Virus record (IMG/VR): IMGVR_UViG_3300046167_000155
Span: 1 to 24,037 of that record
DNA: 24,037 bases
Direction: 5' to 3' (one strand)
DNA from: a virus
The translations under genes and the position numbers were made by a program. Under the pieces are notes generated by a model that worked only from the letters and a program-made list of their open reading frames with translations, did no database searches and had not been told where the DNA came from. Shown here piece after piece: positions 2,952 through 20,994 of the stretch; position 1 is the stretch's first letter, and each line of letters starts with the position of its first letter.

Positions 2952-5900
2952 TTACCCATTACCTTATACAGCAGCACAAATACAAGAGTACCTTGAAAAA
3001 GTAGCGACTCCTGATGGTGCTCCTGTGGGCGACTCATCAGCACTTATTACATCTGGAGCTGTGGCAGAAGCTTTATCAAACTTTACTGGCTCTGGCTCTG
3101 GGTCTGTTAACCTTACAAAAGAGCAAATAGAAGCTTTAGGTATTAGTGTTGACCTAGATCAGATTGGTGATTTAGACCAACTCACTTTAGATTTTGACTC
3201 TATTACTGGTGATGTTGCAGTTTTTCTTGATGATATTACAGACATAGGTAATTTATTCATAAATGCTGATCATGTAACAGGCACTATATCAGCTAATCAG
3301 ATTGGCAACATATCAATGGACAATGTTGATACAATCAACAACTTAAGTCTTTCTGCTAATACAGTTGCTGGTATTGACATATCAGCTACGAATCTTAACG
3401 GATTCCAGAACATGGTTACTGGAGTTTTAGGAAGCGTAAGTATAGTAGCAGATGAGGTATCACCTGAATTTAATTGGACTGGTGTAAATGAAGGCATCAT
3501 GCAAGCTATTAATACACCATTACAAAACATTGTAGATGGTACGTTAGAGAACTACACAATTACTACAAATAATTTATCAGCAATAACTACCTTGTCAGAT
3601 ATCAGCGATAGTTTAAATAACACTGTCAATGCGGCTATACAAAACCAGGTAAATGGTGCATTAGAGTCTTACACAGTTAATGCTGCCAACATTGACGCTG
3701 ATCTAACTATTGAGGATTATGGAGCAGAGGGCAGTACATTCAGACAAACACTTAATGAAGCTATATCAAATGTAGTAGCAGAAGACCTTGGATCATATAC
3801 AATTGATGCTAATAATATCAGTGCTAACTTTACTGTTGATGGTATGGGAAGTGTTTTCGAGACTGCTATTAACCAAGCTATTACAAATCAAGCAGGTATA
3901 ATTTTAGCAGACTATAAGATTGATGCTAACAACATTGAAGCTAATTTTAGTGTAAGTGATTTAGGTACAGACTTTGAGAACGCAGTTAATACAGCAGTTG
4001 ACGCTCGTATTGCTAGTAACTCTGGTAATATTACAATTGAAGCAGAGGCTATTACATCTGACTTTGATATGTCAACATTTACTGGGCACGCTGATTTCCA
4101 AAATGCAATAAACAGTGGTGTTTCTGTATCCTTAGGTAATAGCTCTGGGGATTTGTCTATTGATGTAGGTAACTTGAATGCAGACTTTATACTACCTATT
4201 GGTAACATGGACAGTGATGTTGGTGTGCTTACAGGTGCGTTAATTGAAAACAACGCTCTTAAGATGGATATAGGTATAATGACAGGAGCTTTGACTTTTT
4301 CTAGTTCTTCAGAGAAACAAGATTTCATTAATCAATTCCAAGGTGACTTAGCGATTAACACAAATGTTATTACAGGTGATATCACATCCTCTGGTAATAT
4401 AACAATTCATGCTGATGTTATTACTGATGGTACTATACCAGCAGCACGTCTCGTTGAAACAGACATTAGCCTAGCAATTACACAAATAGCTGACTTATTG
4501 AAGACTAACAATGGAGTAGCTGTAACTGAAACCCAAATAGATGAAAACGGTAATGCAGTTGACTCTTATGTTATAAACCAAGTTGTTATACCACAAGAGT
4601 TACCTAATTTAAATATCACATCAAATTTAGCAGCAGCTTCACTTGATGCTAACAACATAACTGATGGTACACTGTCTCTTCAACGTATTGATCAAACAGG
4701 TTTAAGTATAACAGCGTCTCAAGTTACAGACTTTGATAATAGGATTACAACTGTGCTAGGAGGTACAAACTTTCTTGCGATTGATGGGTCGGACATAGAT
4801 CTTACTGATTTTAATGTTGCTGGATTATCGATAGATGCTGACGAAATAGGTAACATTGACAACAAAATAGAATCAGTGGCTAGTACCATGGGATTTGCTG
4901 ACATATCAAACAGTACTTTGGATTTGTCAGGTGTAGCTGTATCTGGTTTATCTGTTCCTCATTCAGCTATATCTGATTTTGATACAGAAGTGTCATCAAT
5001 TGCAGCTGGGCTTCAATTAAGTAATGTAACTGATTCTGAGATTAACTTCACAGGTATGACTGTTACTGGGTTCGATATTGCAAACCACATTGGAACTGAT
5101 GATTTTAATGCAGCAGTAACAAGTGCTATAGGGACACTAAGCTTTAGTGATATTTCTGGTGGTAGCTTATCATTAACTGATGTAACTGTTAGTGGTCAAT
5201 CTAATCTTGGATTAACTTCTACACACATTTCAGACTTCGATGAAAAACTTACAGCAGCACTTGGTACGATTACGTTTGAAGGGATTACAAACAGTACTTT
5301 AGACTTAACTAATTTTAATGTTTCTGGTTTTAGCCACACAAGTGTTGATGGTCTTACCGACAGAGTTGCTGACTTAACAGCTAATATTGATGCTAGTCAA
5401 TTAAACTTTGTAGATGCTAATGGAGACATAAGTGTTGGTACTGGTGCTAACGATGTGGGTATAGTGGGACTAAATTATACACACATTGAAAACTTTACCC
5501 AAGAAGTTGAGAGTGCAGCAGCAAGTTTAAATTTTTTACAGGTTGATGACAACAGCGAAATTAACTTAACAGATGTAACTCTTACTGGTTTAAATTTAGA
5601 TTTATCTGAATTATCTTCTGGTACACTACCTTCAAACATAACTCTTGATGTTAACCAACTTACTGGTGGTACAATTGATGCTAATCGGTTACCAATTACA
5701 AATAGTAATCTTGAGCTTCTTGGTGCAGACTTAGACTTTGTTGATTTAAATGGTAATCTTACTATTGATGCTGGTAGTATTACTGGTGGTACTTTAAACC
5801 TTGAAAACATGGATGGTTTTGCAGGCACAATACCTACTGAAAACATTGCTGGTATTAATATTGATGTGAACCAATTATCTGGTTCTGATATTGATATCAT

Positions 5901-15049: not shown

Positions 15050-16879
15050 TTAACACCAGGTTGGTCCTAAGTCTATGTCCGCTATTACTGGGACTTTGAG
15101 AGGTATTGCTTGTTCCATAATTTCTTTTAGTTGATTTGATTCTTGTTCATTACTAACCATAGCATTTATCTCATCATGTACTGGTAGTCGTAAGTCAAAG
15201 CCAGCTTTGTAAGCATGGACCATTGCAACTTTGGCTTGGTCAGCAGCACTAGCCTTGAATCAAGTCTATTGAGTGCTTTAGATGTGAAGGCACGGAATAT
15301 TTCTTTGTCTTCCCATTTAGTTTTAGCATGACCATATGTTTTAACTGGTTTGTCTTCAAAGCTACAAGTCCAGAAGTCAAAGCGTGCACGACGACCAAGT
15401 ATAGTTTTGATGTAGCCACGTTTACTTGCCATGTTCATTACATTGTCAAAGAGTATTTTTAGGAACGGAGCTTCTTTATTAAATTTTCGCATTGTTGACG
15501 TGCAAAGTTCATCTGAGATCCCAAGTGTCCTTGCCATTTTCTGCTTACCCATCCCATATGAAATCCCAAGGCAAAGCATTTTGCAGGTGTCGTAAGGTAA
15601 GCCAGTCGTTTTCTCAAAGAATGTATATAGTTTTTCACCGTTGTTGAATGCTGCTAGTGCTTGTTCTGCTCCTGGTAGTGGTCTTCCAAATTGTCCAAGT
15701 AATGCGTAATGCACTTGCAGTCTTGGTTCTTGACTGCTGTAATCAGCCTTGCACCAAAGCCTACCAGGCTCTGCAATATAAAGCGATCGTATTCGTTTTC
15801 CAATTTCCGAACGCTTTGGCACTTGTTGCATGTTAGGATTTGATGAAGACAATCGTCCAGATCTTGTACCGCCTTCATCAGAGGCTGTTTGTCGGAAGTC
15901 TGCGTGGATTCTGCCATTATGATTTTGATTAAGGATTATGTCTTCGACGAACACTTTGCGAAGACGATTGATTGACCTGACCTCTTGTATCTTTTTTATT
16001 TGAGGGTGTTCACAGGCATTAAGAAAATCTTTTGCTACTGAGTAATTACCTTTGTCTGTTCTTGGGACTTGTAGTCCTAAACTTTCGCAGTACTTACCAA
16101 GCTGTTGTGGTGACCATATATCTAAGTGTTTAAACTCATTCAATAACGCACTCTCTCTGACTTTAAGATCTTTGTTGAATTGTTCTGCTGCGTCTAGGTC
16201 AACAGGTACTCCCATACGTGACATGTATACAAGTACAGGTATGAGTTCACATTCTAGGTCCCAGACGTCCCAAAGTCCTTCTTCTTTAAGAACTGGTATT
16301 TGGTGTTGGTAGACATCATATGTAAGTCTAGCATCTGCTTCAGCGTACTTGCCGACATGTCTAGCAGGTAGCTTCCACATTTCTGACTTAGCTGATACTT
16401 CGTATTCTTTTGCTGCTTGTTGCAGTCCATCTTCTTTCTTTCCTTTCTTTAAGTATTTCTTTGCAATTGAGTCTAACGAATAAGAAAACTTTTCTTCGTC
16501 AATAAGTGCTTCTGCTACTTGTACATCCCTGACTGGGCAAGAGACCTTTATGCCTAAAGTCTCTAGCCAGCCAAGGTCATAAGTGGCGTTAGCCATTATG
16601 ATTTCATCTGCACACTTTATTACACTCTTTACATATGAAAGCACTATATCTTTATCTAGGTTGTCCCCACCGAAGTGGTTGAACGGTAGATAGACGTGTT
16701 GGTGTTTATCTGCCAACGCAACACCAACCACAAAACCATCGTTTCTTTTGTAACCAGGACCTGACTTTTTAATGTTAGGGTCACTAGTTTCTAAGTCAAT
16801 TGAAATGACGGTACCTAGTTCAGGGAAGTATTGCTGGCGGAACCCAATTAGTCTTTGGTTCAAACAGAGGTATCTGCAT
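15050..16879 (-). CDS. polA: Family A DNA polymerase with 3'-5' exonuclease domain, frameshifted near both ends
   Basis: About 609 aa after reconstruction. Exonuclease motifs: ISIDLETSDP (Exo I), ANATYDLGWL (Exo II) and YAEADARLTYD (Exo III). Polymerase motifs: ADYSSQEPRLQ (A), KMLCLGISYGMG (B, O helix) and VHDE (C). There is no 5' nuclease domain, as in most phage PolA. The residue matching E. coli Phe762 is Leu (codon 15568-15570). The start is taken as the ATG at 16879, giving MQIPLFEPKTNWVPP, which joins FPELGTVISIDLE after a shift at about 16830-16838. Near 15261 and 15251 two extra bases interrupt NRL-IQG-SAADQAK; beyond them the frame with VHDE runs to TAA at 15050. It replicates the phage genome with the primase and helicases. 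Confidence 0.9.
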
Positions 16880-17111
16880 CGTTTAGTTCTTCGTTCTTTC
16901 TTATTACTTTGTTCATCTTGAGCCAAGGTTTCTTTGCACATTCTGCATCTATTTCTTCTTGAGTCTTTTTTCGTATGAGTCCGTTAGTCTATTGCATTGC
17001 TCAGCTACTTGATTTATACTCATAATATGGATCTTGTTTGTAGAGTTCAGGAGCTTTTGCGTCCATCATCTTAAAGATTCTTTTTATCGATTCACTGTTT
17101 GTTTCGTACAT
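16860..17111 (-). CDS. Small unknown protein of about 84 aa with internal frame disturbance
   Basis: Starts MYETNSESIKRIFKMMDAKA and ends NKVIRKNEELNDADTSV, in the same frame. In between lie a TGA at 17001-17003 and a TAG at 16989-16991. Reading the middle in another frame gives EQCNRLTDSYEKRL, which continues the charged, helical character, so two compensating indels rather than a stop are likely. The protein is charged and helical with no recognised family. It begins 27 bases after the reconstructed nuclease end and overlaps the polymerase start by 20 bases, where its last codons and the first codons of polA share sequence in different frames. Confidence 0.55.
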
Positions 17112-17138: not shown

Positions 17139-17638
17139 TTATCTGGATAGATGATGAGAACGTAACTGCATCAGTTGTTGTGCATCGATGTCCAGACCAC
17201 ACAATTTGTTCACTGCAGTGTGGCGTCGCAGAGTTTCTAAGGCTCCCTTTGTGGCTAAGCCAGCTTGGGAACGAGTTGGAAATAGTTAATAAATTCTTTA
17301 AAACCCTCATTATCAAGAACGAACTCTCTTTTGTCATGATTGTATACACTGTACCTTTGAACAACAAGTCGTTTAGTTTTGGGATATGCAGACAATGTTA
17401 CCACTACTGCGTTAGTTGGGATAGCGTTAGCTTTTATTTGCCACGCTTTTTGCTCTGGTCTGAGCCTAGTAGTTTCGAACTTACTTTCAATAAGCCAAGT
17501 CTTATCCTGCGTGAGAATGAGCAAATCAGGGACTCCATTCCCTGTACTAGTTTCGATGCGTTGCACCGTAATGTGTTTATTAAATGTTTCATAAAATTGT
17601 TTTGTTAGCCATTTGTTAAATTGTGATTCGTTCTTCAT
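17139..17638 (-). CDS. PD-(D/E)XK nuclease, VRR-NUC-like, C-terminus frameshifted
   Basis: Begins MKNESQFNKWLTKQFYETF. The nuclease core is Gly-Val-Pro-Asp38 followed by TWLIESKF with Glu51-x-Lys53 and a Gln63 on the next helix (LRPEQKAW), the pattern of PD-(D/E)XK nucleases of the VRR-NUC or Holliday-junction-resolvase kind. The first frame stops at 17255. The frame entered by a one-base shift at about 17275-17284 gives TRSQAGLATKGALETLRRH and ends at 17139, which I take as the real C-terminus (about 166 aa). It overlaps the JAB gene by 23 bases, so it is coupled to the ubiquitin-like cassette. It may resolve branched replication DNA or degrade host DNA. Confidence 0.7.
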
Positions 17639-18743
17639 TTTGATATTCCTCAAGCTTGATAACAAGCTGTTGCTTGTCAATACCAAACTGTCCTGAATAT
17701 TTGTCAAGAAGTTTATCAACCAATTTGTAGAATGGACATGTGATTTGTTTGATGTACGCTGAGTACATGTGGTGAGCAATGCGAGTGTCTTCGATCTGTC
17801 CTGTTCTGATGGTTGAGATTTCTGCATCATCGCCACCAGTTTGTGTAACATAATCAAGAAGCTTTTCTTCAAACTCATAATCGTATAAAGAATTGAACAC
17901 CATCTCATCAACGACATCCAACTCACTTATGACCTCGCTTTCTGTAGAGTTTTTTTTTGATGTTGATTTGTTGTATGGGTGATCATCCCACCAAGAGTTT
18001 GTGTCAAAGTAGCCAATACTTCTAGCTTTTGATTTAGTAGTGTATGCTGGAAACTTTGGTTTAGATACATTGTCCATATAACTAGTGAAGTCAAACTTAG
18101 TAAGATCAGGTATCTTGTACAGTTGTTGATTCATGTAGTCCTGTTCTACTGCAAGCATGTCGTCAGTCAGTTCTATATTCTTTTTGAATGGAGACATTGC
18201 ACCGTCAATGACCATAGATAAGTCATCAAGCTCGTGACACTCGTTGTCAAGACACCAACGGAAGTGGATATCAATGTCAGTAGGTTTGTTAAGATTACCA
18301 ATAGTAAAGTGAAAGCCTTCTCGGTTTGTCTCGTCGGCTTCGTCTGTACCAGATTGGAATGCAGATGTACTACAGTGGTGGTGTACAGTACCAAACATAA
18401 TGTCTGGATGTTGTGCACGCTGTACTTGGAAGTTGATGTGCTCTGGGTCAGATTTAACAGTCATACCACTGGTAATCTGGGGTGGTACCCAGAAAGACCA
18501 AGGTTGCTTTTTGTTCTCGTCGTAATACAAGAACAACATAGTCTCTGACTTGAGTACATCATAACTGTGTTTCATGAAAGCAAGAATCTCTTGCCACATG
18601 GTTAACGGTATCTTCTTACCGTTCCACTCTGGGCTAAGTTCTTCGTATTTAGGTAGCTCGACTTTTTGATACGTAGTAAACAAAGGATGTCGTTTTTCTT
18701 CGTACAGGTCGTTTTGTGATAAGACATAATATTTTTTAGACAT
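17616..18743 (-). CDS. JAMM/JAB metalloprotease (deubiquitinase-like)
   Basis: Encodes 375 aa. The JAMM zinc motif is complete: His121-x-His123, seven residues, Ser131, two residues, Asp134 (HHHCSTSAFQSGTD), with Glu67 (SETML) as the likely catalytic glutamate upstream. This motif defines Zn-dependent isopeptidases that remove ubiquitin or ubiquitin-like tails. The rest, from about residue 190, is an extra region of Asp/Tyr/Lys-rich helices that I do not recognise and that could hold the substrate. It starts in an 8-base overlap (ATGTCTAA) with the E1-like gene and ends inside the nuclease gene. In PRTRC and related cassettes a JAB protein accompanies E1 and E2, as here. It may process the Ubl or reverse conjugation. 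Confidence 0.85.
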   Translation of the reverse strand: MSKKYYVLSQNDLYEEKRHPLFTTYQKVELPKYEELSPEWNGKKIPLTMWQEILAFMKHSYDVLKSETMLFLYYDENKKQPWSFWVPPQITSGMTVKSDPEHINFQVQRAQHPDIMFGTVHHHCSTSAFQSGTDEADETNREGFHFTIGNLNKPTDIDIHFRWCLDNECHELDDLSMVIDGAMSPFKKNIELTDDMLAVEQDYMNQQLYKIPDLTKFDFTSYMDNVSKPKFPAYTTKSKARSIGYFDTNSWWDDHPYNKSTSKKNSTESEVISELDVVDEMVFNSLYDYEFEEKLLDYVTQTGGDDAEISTIRTGQIEDTRIAHHMYSAYIKQITCPFYKLVDKLLDKYSGQFGIDKQQLVIKLEEYQNEERITI

Positions 18744-19461
18744 AGGATGGTACGGTTATGTTAGACAGATCTGCTAGTGTAATAGTTTCTAGCTTACTGA
18801 AGGTTGTTTGATACTCGACAGGATACCAGTCGCCACGCTCTTGGTCATCAAGTAAGTATGGTGCCCACAAGTGTAGTAAATAATTACCAAGGGACGCACT
18901 AACTTGATTAGCAATGGCAAGTTGTGGTGTACTTTCTAGTGCGTCGCCTTGGCAGCGGATGGGTGACCCTTCATTAGATGTTGCTAACTCAGGATACCTA
19001 AGAAATGGATTAATCATTGGATACTGTGCTTCTAAGTGTGGCACATACATGAATGCTTGACTTGTTGAATACTCGTTAGCCATAACAAGACATGGTTTGT
19101 CTAGGTCTTTGGCAGTCTCAAGTAACGCTCTGCGTGCAGGATGGTTGTCAACAGCAGCGATGAGTACATCAGCTTGTTGGAACCAGTAATTGTACTCAGT
19201 GTCTAGCATATCGCTGTCAAAGTATTGCTGTATAACACTGCAATTGTGTTTGTTGAAAGTATAAGTCTTTGCTAGTGCGACTGCTTTGTTGAGTCCGACA
19301 TGATTAGTACGGAACAATTGACGGTCTAGATTCTTTTTCTCTAGTGTGTCTCCGTCAATGAGAACAAGCTCTAAGTCGAAGCTGTTCTTGAGGGCTGGTA
19401 GCATGTACGATGTAACACCACCAGCACCTACGATTAGTGCTTTTAGTTTTGGTTTAGCCAT
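18736..19461 (-). CDS. ThiF/E1-like adenylyltransferase (ubiquitin-activating enzyme-like)
   Basis: Encodes 241 aa. It has a Rossmann Gly-rich loop (VGAGGVTS at 11-18), the E1 signature Asp36-x-Asp38 to Asn44-Leu-Asp-Arg47-Gln48, Lys59 in GLNKA and Asp105 in AAVDN; together these bind ATP and adenylate a Ubl C-terminus. Cys170 (SPIRCQGDALES) lies where the ThiF protein of PRTRC cassettes has its conserved cysteine, followed by a similar helix, so thioester formation is plausible. It is shorter than MoeB/ThiF (about 250 aa) but complete. It overlaps both neighbours by 8 bases (ATGGCTAA and ATGTCTAA). The expected substrate is the beta-grasp protein four genes upstream. Confidence 0.9.
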   Translation of the reverse strand: MAKPKLKALIVGAGGVTSYMLPALKNSFDLELVLIDGDTLEKKNLDRQLFRTNHVGLNKAVALAKTYTFNKHNCSVIQQYFDSDMLDTEYNYWFQQADVLIAAVDNHPARRALLETAKDLDKPCLVMANEYSTSQAFMYVPHLEAQYPMINPFLRYPELATSNEGSPIRCQGDALESTPQLAIANQVSASLGNYLLHLWAPYLLDDQERGDWYPVEYQTTFSKLETITLADLSNITVPSYV

Positions 19462-19819
19462 TGCGTTTTAGATATTTGTGAAGTTGTTGACCAGTTACTT
19501 TAGCTGGTTTGTGTTGTGTTTCTTTGAAGTGTTTAATGTAACGAAGTATTGCACCACGCTTACGACCAACACCAGTGTCGGAATCATAATGACGACCTAG
19601 TATTTTAAATAGAATACGCAGTTCGTTTTTTTCAAGACCGTGGTCAATCTCGTGTTCATCAGCCAATCTTTTGTTCTCATTGTCGAGTTCATTAGATAGG
19701 TTTTGCATATGATGTGATGCAACCATTTGACCTGGATTGTCATTTGCATATTGAAATGCATAACGCAATGATGTATCAGCACTAGGCTTTTGAATTAGTT
19801 TGTTGTAGACTGTAGACAT
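19454..19819 (-). CDS. Unknown protein inside the ubiquitin-like cassette
   Basis: Encodes 121 aa, charged and helical. It is rich in His, Lys, Asn and Glu, and contains no cysteine, so it is neither a RING-type E3 nor a second thioester carrier. A likely amphipathic helical pair lies at about 33-80 (NLSNELDNENKRLADEHE, then LEKNELRILFKILGRHY), followed by a basic C-terminal region (GRKRGAILRYIKHFKE). It overlaps the E2-like gene by 25 bases and the E1-like gene by 8, which makes co-expression close to certain. It may be a dedicated adaptor or target of the pathway. I recognise no family. Confidence 0.7.
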   Translation of the reverse strand: MSTVYNKLIQKPSADTSLRYAFQYANDNPGQMVASHHMQNLSNELDNENKRLADEHEIDHGLEKNELRILFKILGRHYDSDTGVGRKRGAILRYIKHFKETQHKPAKVTGQQLHKYLKRNG

Positions 19820-20676
19820 GATGCGAAATCTATAAGGTTAGAGTTAGTAATATCTTGGAAGAAACGACCGTGTGGTTTGTAGTCTTCGTCGAAGTCTGTC
19901 ATTGCATTTGTTGGTACAGTAGCAAACTCATTGTCTCTTTTGTACCACCAAGCATGAGCGTTGACTAGTTCTGAATAAAACAAGTCACGATTACATGGTG
20001 ATTTAAACATTATATTCATTAGATTGGTTACTGCTGTTTGTAAGTACTGAATAGGCATATTATTTTCTATTAGTCGTTCATCTCTGAAGTCTCCACCACC
20101 GCATAGTCTACCGTCGTCATAGATGTTAGGTAGATTGAAGGTAACAATGTTTCTTGATGCTTTGTGTATACCAAACAAATAAGCAGTCATTGGGTCTCTA
20201 CTTTGTTGTAGCTTGGCAGTCTTACTACCGAGATAGCGACAGTTGAATCTAATCATCATCCACATAGAGTAGTCAGTGTTGTTGTACATAACCATATCAG
20301 ATGGTTGAACAACATCCTCAGGTTCAGATCGTTCGCCTCGTCTTTCTGAGTCACTTAGTATATACAGTTCATATAGATCTTGATTATCTGTTTGTCTGAA
20401 TTTTGCACCAGGTAACGGAAAACCGTCATCTAGATTGACGAATGCATAACAATGTTCTGGATTGACACCAGAGTTGTGTGCATAGTAACATTGATACTCC
20501 CTGTTTAGTACAGGGATTGATACAGGTATGTTAGACATACGGAGAGTATCGTCACGCATACAGGCAGTAATAGCTGTGTCTGCGTCAGCGATGACAGATT
20601 CTCTCGTTTCTCGCTTGATAAATTTGCCATCAGGTCCGAGAATGATTTCCTGACGAAGCGGTAGTTGTGTTGACAT
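19795..20676 (-). CDS. E2-like ubiquitin-conjugating protein, PRTRC protein B type
   Basis: Encodes 293 aa from the ATG at 20676; an upstream in-frame ATG at 20718 would add 14 less likely residues. The key block is FNLPNIYDDGRLCGGGDFRDE at about 180-200. An Asn-(Ile/Val)-(Tyr/Phe)-Asp-Asp-Gly-Arg-(Leu/Val)-Cys core like this is what I remember for PRTRC system protein B, the prokaryotic E2 family D, whose cysteine (here Cys192) is the proposed thioester site. It is followed at the usual distance by a hydrophobic helix and FKSPCNRDLF. The N-terminal half is unlike eukaryotic E2 and unassigned. The order E2, small protein, E1, JAB supports the reading. Distant family; moderate certainty. Confidence 0.7.
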   Translation of the reverse strand: MSTQLPLRQEIILGPDGKFIKRETRESVIADADTAITACMRDDTLRMSNIPVSIPVLNREYQCYYAHNSGVNPEHCYAFVNLDDGFPLPGAKFRQTDNQDLYELYILSDSERRGERSEPEDVVQPSDMVMYNNTDYSMWMMIRFNCRYLGSKTAKLQQSRDPMTAYLFGIHKASRNIVTFNLPNIYDDGRLCGGGDFRDERLIENNMPIQYLQTAVTNLMNIMFKSPCNRDLFYSELVNAHAWWYKRDNEFATVPTNAMTDFDEDYKPHGRFFQDITNSNLIDFASCLQSTTN

Positions 20677-20763
20677 GATAGTTATATAAAGGGGACCAAC
20701 GGTGTGATACCTGTGCACTTCGAGTCACATATAAGGATTTCACACACACCATTGGTATTGTTG

Positions 20764-20994
20764 TTACGCTTTACTTGATGCTTGTCGTTCTAGCGTGATT
20801 GATGAGTAGTCAGCTACATAAGCATCAGTGCTTAGTGTTTGACCGTTTGAAACAGCGACGCAACCTTCTGGTGCTGATAAAGCACCAAGAATGGATGAGT
20901 CACGAAGTAGAGAACCTACTGTGAGATTCTCGTCGAAGGAACGACTAACTGAGTTAGACATTCCGTATCTGATTGTGATTGTAGTATTATCCAT
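20764..20994 (-). CDS. Ubiquitin-like beta-grasp protein (76 aa)
   Basis: The preferred start is the ATG at 20994, which makes the same 8-base overlap (ATGGATAA) with the previous gene as two later junctions; an ATG at 21003 would add three residues. The pattern is that of ThiS/ubiquitin-like folds: strand TTITIRY, strand RSFDENL, helix TVGSLLRDSSILGAL, strand GCVAVSNG, then the diagnostic ADYSSITLER before the end (compare Leu-x-Asp-Gly-Asp-x-Ile-x-Leu). The C-terminus is Gln-Ala-Ser-Ser-Lys-Ala, with no glycine after Gly51, which is odd for a conjugated Ubl. It is the likely partner of the E1- and E2-like proteins. The fold is assigned by pattern only. Confidence 0.7.
   Translation of the reverse strand: MDNTTITIRYGMSNSVSRSFDENLTVGSLLRDSSILGALSAPEGCVAVSNGQTLSTDAYVADYSSITLERQASSKA

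Follow-up and report, generated by a model that had tools for sequence, protein, structure and literature searches.

Ubiquitin-like protein conjugation in bacteria is known mainly as a form of anti-phage defence (CBASS, Bil) or from unexplained plasmid genes (PRTRC), and there is, to our knowledge, hardly any description of viruses using protein tagging of this type. A search of the open-access literature, with subscription papers and preprints outside its scope, found no paper on phage cassettes that combine an E1, an E2, a ubiquitin-like modifier (Ubl), and a JAB protein. Here, such a cassette is described from a 24,037-base virus DNA (IMG/VR record IMGVR_UViG_3300046167_000155; this whole stretch is referred to as the window, and all coordinates refer to it). 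The cassette encodes a Ubl, an E2-like protein, a protein termed X, an E1-like adenylating enzyme, and a JAB/JAMM metalloprotease. An earlier reading of the DNA from its letters and open reading frames (hereafter the sequence-only reading) had proposed that a phage replication operon here contains every part of a Ubl-conjugation set, and this is supported by the beta-grasp assignment of the modifier, the link of the E2-like protein to the Prok-E2_D family, and the intact motifs of the E1 and JAB proteins. With a probability of about 0.75, the cassette is a working, phage-encoded system for reversible Ubl conjugation and deconjugation.

Comparison with described systems

Operons that unite E1, E2, Ubl, and JAB genes have been described in bacteria, including a PRTRC plasmid type (6d) composed of a Ubl, an alpha-helical protein, an E2, a JAB, and an E1 (Iyer 2006, PMC1779556). 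The window cassette has an equal set of parts, its E1 and JAB proteins weakly match PRTRC models, and its E2-like protein is tied to Prok-E2_D. Likewise, other phage cassettes (those of Salmonella phage Arash, Vibrio phage D69, and locus L025) are ordered E2-JAB-E1 with Ubl tails of GTKG, and the E2 of phage D69, a distant relative, weakly matches PRTRC_B. However, the window scores fall far below the model cut-offs, both for E1 against PRTRC_ThiF (TIGR03736; 4.4e-10, 39.3 bits versus a cut-off of 144.75) and for JAB against PRTRC_A (TIGR03735; 1.2e-6, 28.2 bits versus 101.8), and the PRTRC_B and PRTRC_C models did not match the window E2 or Ubl. The cassette further differs from PRTRC in its order (Ubl-E2-X-E1-JAB), in the extra gene X, in its location in a phage replication block, and in a Ubl that is ubiquitin/ThiS-like in sequence and ends in ASSKA.

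E1, E2, and JAB chemistry is also shared with CBASS Cap2/Cap3, where a C-terminal Gly or Ala is accepted, and Bil operons (BilABCD) similarly join a Ubl, an E2, a JAB-type deubiquitinase, and an E1. In the PADLOC models, the window E1 shares a domain with CBASS E1-E2 and BilD (the latter weakly, at 18 bits), and tagging through Gly or Ala C-termini is known from such systems. These similarities would fit a phage-carried system of anti-phage defence or superinfection exclusion that places its Ubl on the proteins of competing phages. This role is nonetheless unlikely: the E2, Ubl, and JAB have no match among the PADLOC models, so that the E1 alone touches a Bil model, and the cassette is fixed in the core replication block of all relatives rather than being a mobile accessory. 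Moreover, the window E1 and E2 are separate genes and the modifier is a true Ubl, and a test for type II CBASS recognised no CD-NTase, effector, or Cap2 E1-E2 fusion among the proteins scanned near the cassette. The tail proteins I (Ubl) and K (JAB) of phages lambda and T1 also pair a Ubl with a JAB in a phage, but they lie in a tail operon that has neither E1 nor E2. The family models applied reject membership in each of PRTRC, CBASS, and Bil, to which the cassette is nonetheless related. Its general kind is known from bacterial E1-E2-Ubl-JAB operons, but its setting is new and the tail of its modifier is distinct.

Components of the cassette

The cassette genes are all on the minus strand, in the positions that the sequence-only reading had given them (17616-20994), consecutive apart from the one gene (X) that it had left unassigned. 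In order of transcription, the features are:

20764..20994, minus strand: Ubl, a 76-amino-acid beta-grasp modifier with the C-terminus ITLERQASSKA (PDB profile search, AlphaFold2 model, Foldseek, invariant tail)
20695..20756, minus strand: RNA hairpin in the Ubl-E2 intergenic region, with a short U-rich run after it (covariation)
19795..20676, minus strand: E2-like enzyme, 293 amino acids, ATG start, with N184...C192 (PNIYDDGRLC), G194, and N229 (invariant residues, Prok-E2_D profile link)
19454..19819, minus strand: X, 121 amino acids, with the motif GRKRGAILRYIK, a possible accessory or specificity factor (conserved in the window clade only)
18736..19461, minus strand: E1-like adenylating enzyme, 241 amino acids, with GAGG, DGD, N44-R47-Q48, K59, D105, and C170 (Pfam ThiF, 4e-19)
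17616..18743, minus strand: JAB/JAMM metalloprotease, 375 amino acids, predicted deconjugase (PRTRC_A 1.2e-6, Prok-JAB 0.02, invariant JAMM)

Direct scans of the window Ubl against Pfam, PHROG, and NCBIfam returned no family match. A profile built from 20 Ubls of this and related cassettes, searched against the PDB, had a redesigned ubiquitin as its best match (E 1.8e-5), with weaker matches to polyubiquitin, SAMP2, and MoaD. The AlphaFold2 model of the Ubl (mean predicted local distance difference test, pLDDT, 86.5) has ubiquitin variants, NEDD8, Caldiarchaeum ubiquitin, and ISG15 as its top Foldseek matches. The profile and the model agree, and together they confirm the predicted beta-grasp identity of the 76-amino-acid protein. 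A Gly-Gly C-terminus was sought in the window Ubl and is not present: the protein ends in LERQASSKA followed by a stop, identically in all six close sequences, and two more distant Ubls (L026 and L174) end in LEQQASSKA. Among 73 different Ubls encoded beside phage cassettes, 35 end in K-G, 18 in K-A, 13 in K-x-G-G, and 7 otherwise, indicating that Lys-Gly or Lys-Ala tails are commoner than Gly-Gly in these cassettes. A precedent for an Ala-ended modifier is provided by CBASS, in which cGAS C-termini are Gly or Ala, both are used, and the Ala form of E. cloacae conjugates (PMC10097602). Some phage Ubls carry a few residues past K-G or K-A and others are arranged in tandem like polyubiquitin, with two copies in L061 (979-1368), L076 (1028-1468), and L101 (11160-11648), and three in Vibrio phage D69 (L017:1382-2173); both arrangements would be compatible with processing by the JAB protein.

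The hairpin between the Ubl and E2 genes covaries, with compensated two-sided changes in 9 of its 22 pairs (6 sequences), and more distant relatives have shorter hairpins at the same site. An Rfam search with it yielded no family. It is a reasonable guess that this hairpin is a putative partial terminator that holds the Ubl above its enzymes.

Like the Ubl, the window E2-like protein had no match in direct scans of Pfam, PHROG, and NCBIfam, with none to PF14460 (Prok-E2_D) above the Pfam cut-off, and the E2 alignment, used as a query profile against the PDB, likewise had no match. PF14460 is matched directly by 22 of its 39 relatives, with L058 and L026 as stepping stones, and an hhalign comparison of the window-clade E2 profile to a profile of Prok-E2_D members gave 96% probability (E 2e-9, 63 columns). 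These profile comparisons argue for a good link to the Prok-E2_D family. N184, C192, G194, and N229 are invariant across all 39 E2-like sequences, down to 13% identity. It should be noted that N184 and C192 belonged to the search pattern for many of these sequences; N229 was never in any pattern, and E2-like sequences reached through the JAB motif rather than an E2 pattern retain both N184 and C192. The Asn-to-Cys spacing (N-x7-C) equals the HPN-motif spacing of four eukaryotic E2 sequences, and comparisons with the eukaryotic UBC family are used as supporting evidence only.

The E1 (Pfam ThiF, 4e-19) retains the GxGG, DxD, N..RQ, K, and D residues for ATP binding of the ThiF/E1 superfamily, and an alignment of about 136 phage E1s shows almost no variation at G12, G14, N44, K59, and D105. 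The closest relatives all have C170, as do 86 of the 129 E1s of a wider set. In the JAB protein, which matches the PRTRC_A (1.2e-6) and Prok-JAB (0.02) profiles, the JAMM motif H121-x-H123-x7-S131-x2-D134 is intact, conforms to E...HxH(x7)S(x2)D, and is invariant within the window clade. The sequence-only reading had described the E1 as having all adenylation motifs plus Cys170 and the JAMM motif as perfect, and both descriptions held. X bears GRKRGAILRYIK or a close form of it throughout the window clade; it belongs to no family, had no credible match in direct scans of Pfam, PHROG, and NCBIfam, and was not found beyond this clade among the cassette loci surveyed.

A ThiF-type E1 and a Ubl profile that touches MoaD and SAMP2 would also be expected of a sulfur-carrier system of the ThiS/MoaD type, with the E1 and JAB performing thiocarboxylate chemistry instead of protein tagging. 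This is highly improbable here, where the cassette includes an E2-like enzyme with a catalytic Asn/Cys pair, the Ubl tail lacks Gly-Gly, and the scans of window proteins revealed neither a rhodanese nor a sulfurtransferase.

Conservation, selection, and genomic setting

At least 12 further virus contigs, several of them incomplete at one end, keep the order Ubl-E2-X-E1-JAB-VRRNUC-PolA-gp34-primase(-UvrD-SNF2), and a terminase large subunit gene is present on 6 of the 13 cassette contigs searched. All five cassette genes are under purifying selection, with ratios of nonsynonymous to synonymous polymorphism (pN/pS) of 0.07-0.31 for the Ubl, 0.19-0.22 for the E1, and 0.2-0.54 for the E2, X, and JAB. 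The conserved gene order, together with pN/pS values of 0.07-0.54 in every gene, indicates that the cassette is more than a chance assembly. E2 and X evolve fastest, with identity across the clade of 26-30% for E2 versus 57-70% for E1. In some pairs, the synonymous divergence (dS) of E2 and X lies below that of their neighbours (relative to L002, dS is 0.14 for E2 and above 1 for the Ubl and E1), which suggests that the E2-X part may have been swapped between phages. Rapid change of E2 and X at pN/pS of 0.2-0.5, along with their apparent exchange, would be in keeping with counter-defence, in which host defence or shut-off factors would be tagged and inactivated by the phage at an early stage of infection. 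This explanation is rather doubtful, in that the rapid change of E2 may simply track change in the host.

Two further genes on the same strand flank the cassette downstream:

17255..17638, minus strand: VRR-NUC nuclease, syntenic flank, overlapping the JAB gene (Pfam VRR_NUC, 1.5e-6)
15166..16941, minus strand: DNA polymerase A with a broken frame, syntenic flank outside the cassette (DNA_pol_A 2e-41, exonuclease 4e-11)

Transcription would proceed from the Ubl through the E2-like, X, E1, JAB, and VRR nuclease genes to DNA polymerase A. Overlaps between successive genes from E2 through the nuclease measure 25, 8, 8, and about 23 bases, in agreement with the sequence-only reading. Beyond polymerase A lie genes for a Pam3 gp34-like protein (relatives of which are annotated as binding single-stranded DNA), a primase, UvrD and SNF2 helicases, and a phosphoesterase. 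The polymerase A frame is interrupted twice (near 16820 and near 15255) in a manner that resembles single-base assembly errors, and gene ends in the window are to be read with care. An ACTATCA-like motif recurs ahead of several window genes (about 20690, 21565, 23310, and 23440) and is possibly a promoter or a translation-linked element.

Distribution among viruses, bacteria, and cultured phages

A 35-base E2 pattern identified 47 loci in IMG/VR, 33 with an E1 nearby, 30 with a JAB, and 20 with the complete set of four. A pattern for JAB identified at least 120 loci; among the matches listed, 109 of 120 have an E1 within 4 kb and 19 have all four parts, with E2 and Ubl under-detected because they diverge fastest. 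Loci with all four parts thus number at least about 39 (20 through the E2 pattern and 19 through the JAB pattern), and the phage E1s of the matches listed form 47 clusters at 45% identity. Across 257 Gb of genomes from bacteria and archaea, the E2 pattern occurs at 59 loci, mainly cyanobacterial and Chloroflexi, roughly half with an E1 or JAB. In an E1 tree, which was made with FastTree, has long branches, and is used for broad grouping only, the window E1 is one of 22 in a group made up of phage E1s alone; another such group comprises 66, and most bacterial E1s cluster together with some phage E1s among them.

A tblastn search of cultured phages with the window E2 found nothing. E1s of this kind are present in Vibrio phages D69, D181, and D148 and in Acinetobacter phage ME3, and all four parts are present in D69, in ME3 (E2 weakly detected), and in Salmonella phage Arash. 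The latter encodes an E2 (gp248), a JAB (gp247), an E1 (gp246), and a Ubl ending in RRTGTKG (L014:107-307) that was missed in GenBank because gp251 is annotated over it in a different frame. Mass spectrometry of sucrose-purified Arash particles listed Gp246, Gp247, Gp248, and Gp249 among 116 proteins (PMC10585845), indicating that the enzymes are made. In ME3 (L013, 2739-5849), the JAB gene appears to be split at its JAMM motif, with a first exon ending ..VVVMDIH, a mini-exon of about SHVNMSAFFSS, and the remainder near 5200. Rfam recognised two group I introns, one at 3569-3788 that scores below the cut-off and contains tRNAs, and one at 3865-4201 (E 2e-20) that contains endonuclease-like open reading frames. 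In crAss001-like and Flavobacterium psychrophilum phages, an E1 is present with a JAB adjoining where looked at, near primase or toprim and uracil-DNA glycosylase genes; the E2 and Ubl models detected no other parts there, and these phages are therefore not counted as having full cassettes. An E1 from 'Acinetobacter phage MD-2021a' (L016, INPHARED) was discarded as probable contamination, being surrounded by ordinary bacterial genes (kdp, acs, moeB).

Most recognisable neighbours of 34 independent cassettes, counted without a random-position control, belong to recombination or replication (Sak4-like annealing proteins, primase, DnaB, and others); HNH nucleases and a few terminases also occur. 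The replication setting proposed from the window therefore recurs around unrelated cassettes as well. These neighbours, and the many other non-structural enzymes in the Arash particle list, make it improbable that the cassette serves virion maturation, with the Ubl tagging structural proteins and the JAB trimming them as proposed for lambda tail proteins I and K, despite the detection of the Arash E1, E2, and JAB in purified particles.

Proposed function

From gene content, folds and family links, catalytic residues, conservation, purifying selection, and recurrence, we infer the activity of the cassette, the order of its steps, its targets, and its benefit as follows. The Ubl would be made with its final C-terminus (..SSKA) already in place, and the hairpin 3' of its gene may hold it in excess over the enzymes. 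The E1 would adenylate the terminal Ala carboxylate of the Ubl and then take up the Ubl as a thioester, probably on Cys170, from which it would pass to Cys192 of the E2-like protein, with Asn184 supporting transfer onto a lysine. X may help this transfer or set the target, and the JAB would remove the tag. The most likely targets would be phage replication or recombination proteins, or host proteins that act early on phage DNA; the sequence-only reading had suggested host polymerase, defence proteins, the virion, or the replisome as possible targets. Replication-related targets in particular are favoured because the cassette holds a constant place in the replication block and this setting recurs, and they are put forward tentatively.

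Several points weigh against a working conjugation system of this kind. First, the E2-like AlphaFold2 model (pLDDT 75.6, 39 sequences) found no E2 in the PDB by Foldseek, only weak and meaningless potassium-channel matches and, in a viral library, one uncharacterised phage protein, so the assignment of an E2 fold rests on the profile links. The proposal of an E2-D-like 293-amino-acid protein with Cys192 therefore stands for the family link and the Asn184/Cys192 pair, but not for the overall E2 fold, which is unconfirmed, and the direct link to eukaryotic UBC is one of motif only (13 columns, 32% probability). Second, the E2 and JAB motifs are conserved in loci found by pattern partly because the pattern selected for them, and about one in three E1s of the wider set lacks C170 in the alignment. 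Third, the window Ubl ends in Ala, unlike classic modifiers. Fourth, activity is predicted from sequence, with no target or E3 known, and the replication block is also the early-expressed block, which weakens the argument as to targets. Finally, in a list of 116 Arash particle proteins, detection of the enzymes speaks for expression rather than for a role in the virion.

A broader proposal, that complete, reversible Ubl systems whose own modifiers have Lys-Gly or Lys-Ala tails form a widespread core of phage replication modules in dozens of divergent lineages, cultured phages included, constitute virus lineages separate from bacterial PRTRC, and regulate phage DNA replication in the manner of SUMO or ubiquitin in eukaryotic nuclei, is offered as a possibility that is more doubtful than not. 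The full set in the replication blocks of many divergent phage lineages would mean that bacterial viruses themselves tag proteins, reversing the picture of bacterial Ubl conjugation as mainly anti-phage. Salmonella phage Arash, Vibrio phage D69, and Acinetobacter phage ME3 provide testable systems in culture. The cassettes also add a family of modifiers whose tail is of a new kind, and a lineage that may be considered as a source of prokaryotic Ubl systems.

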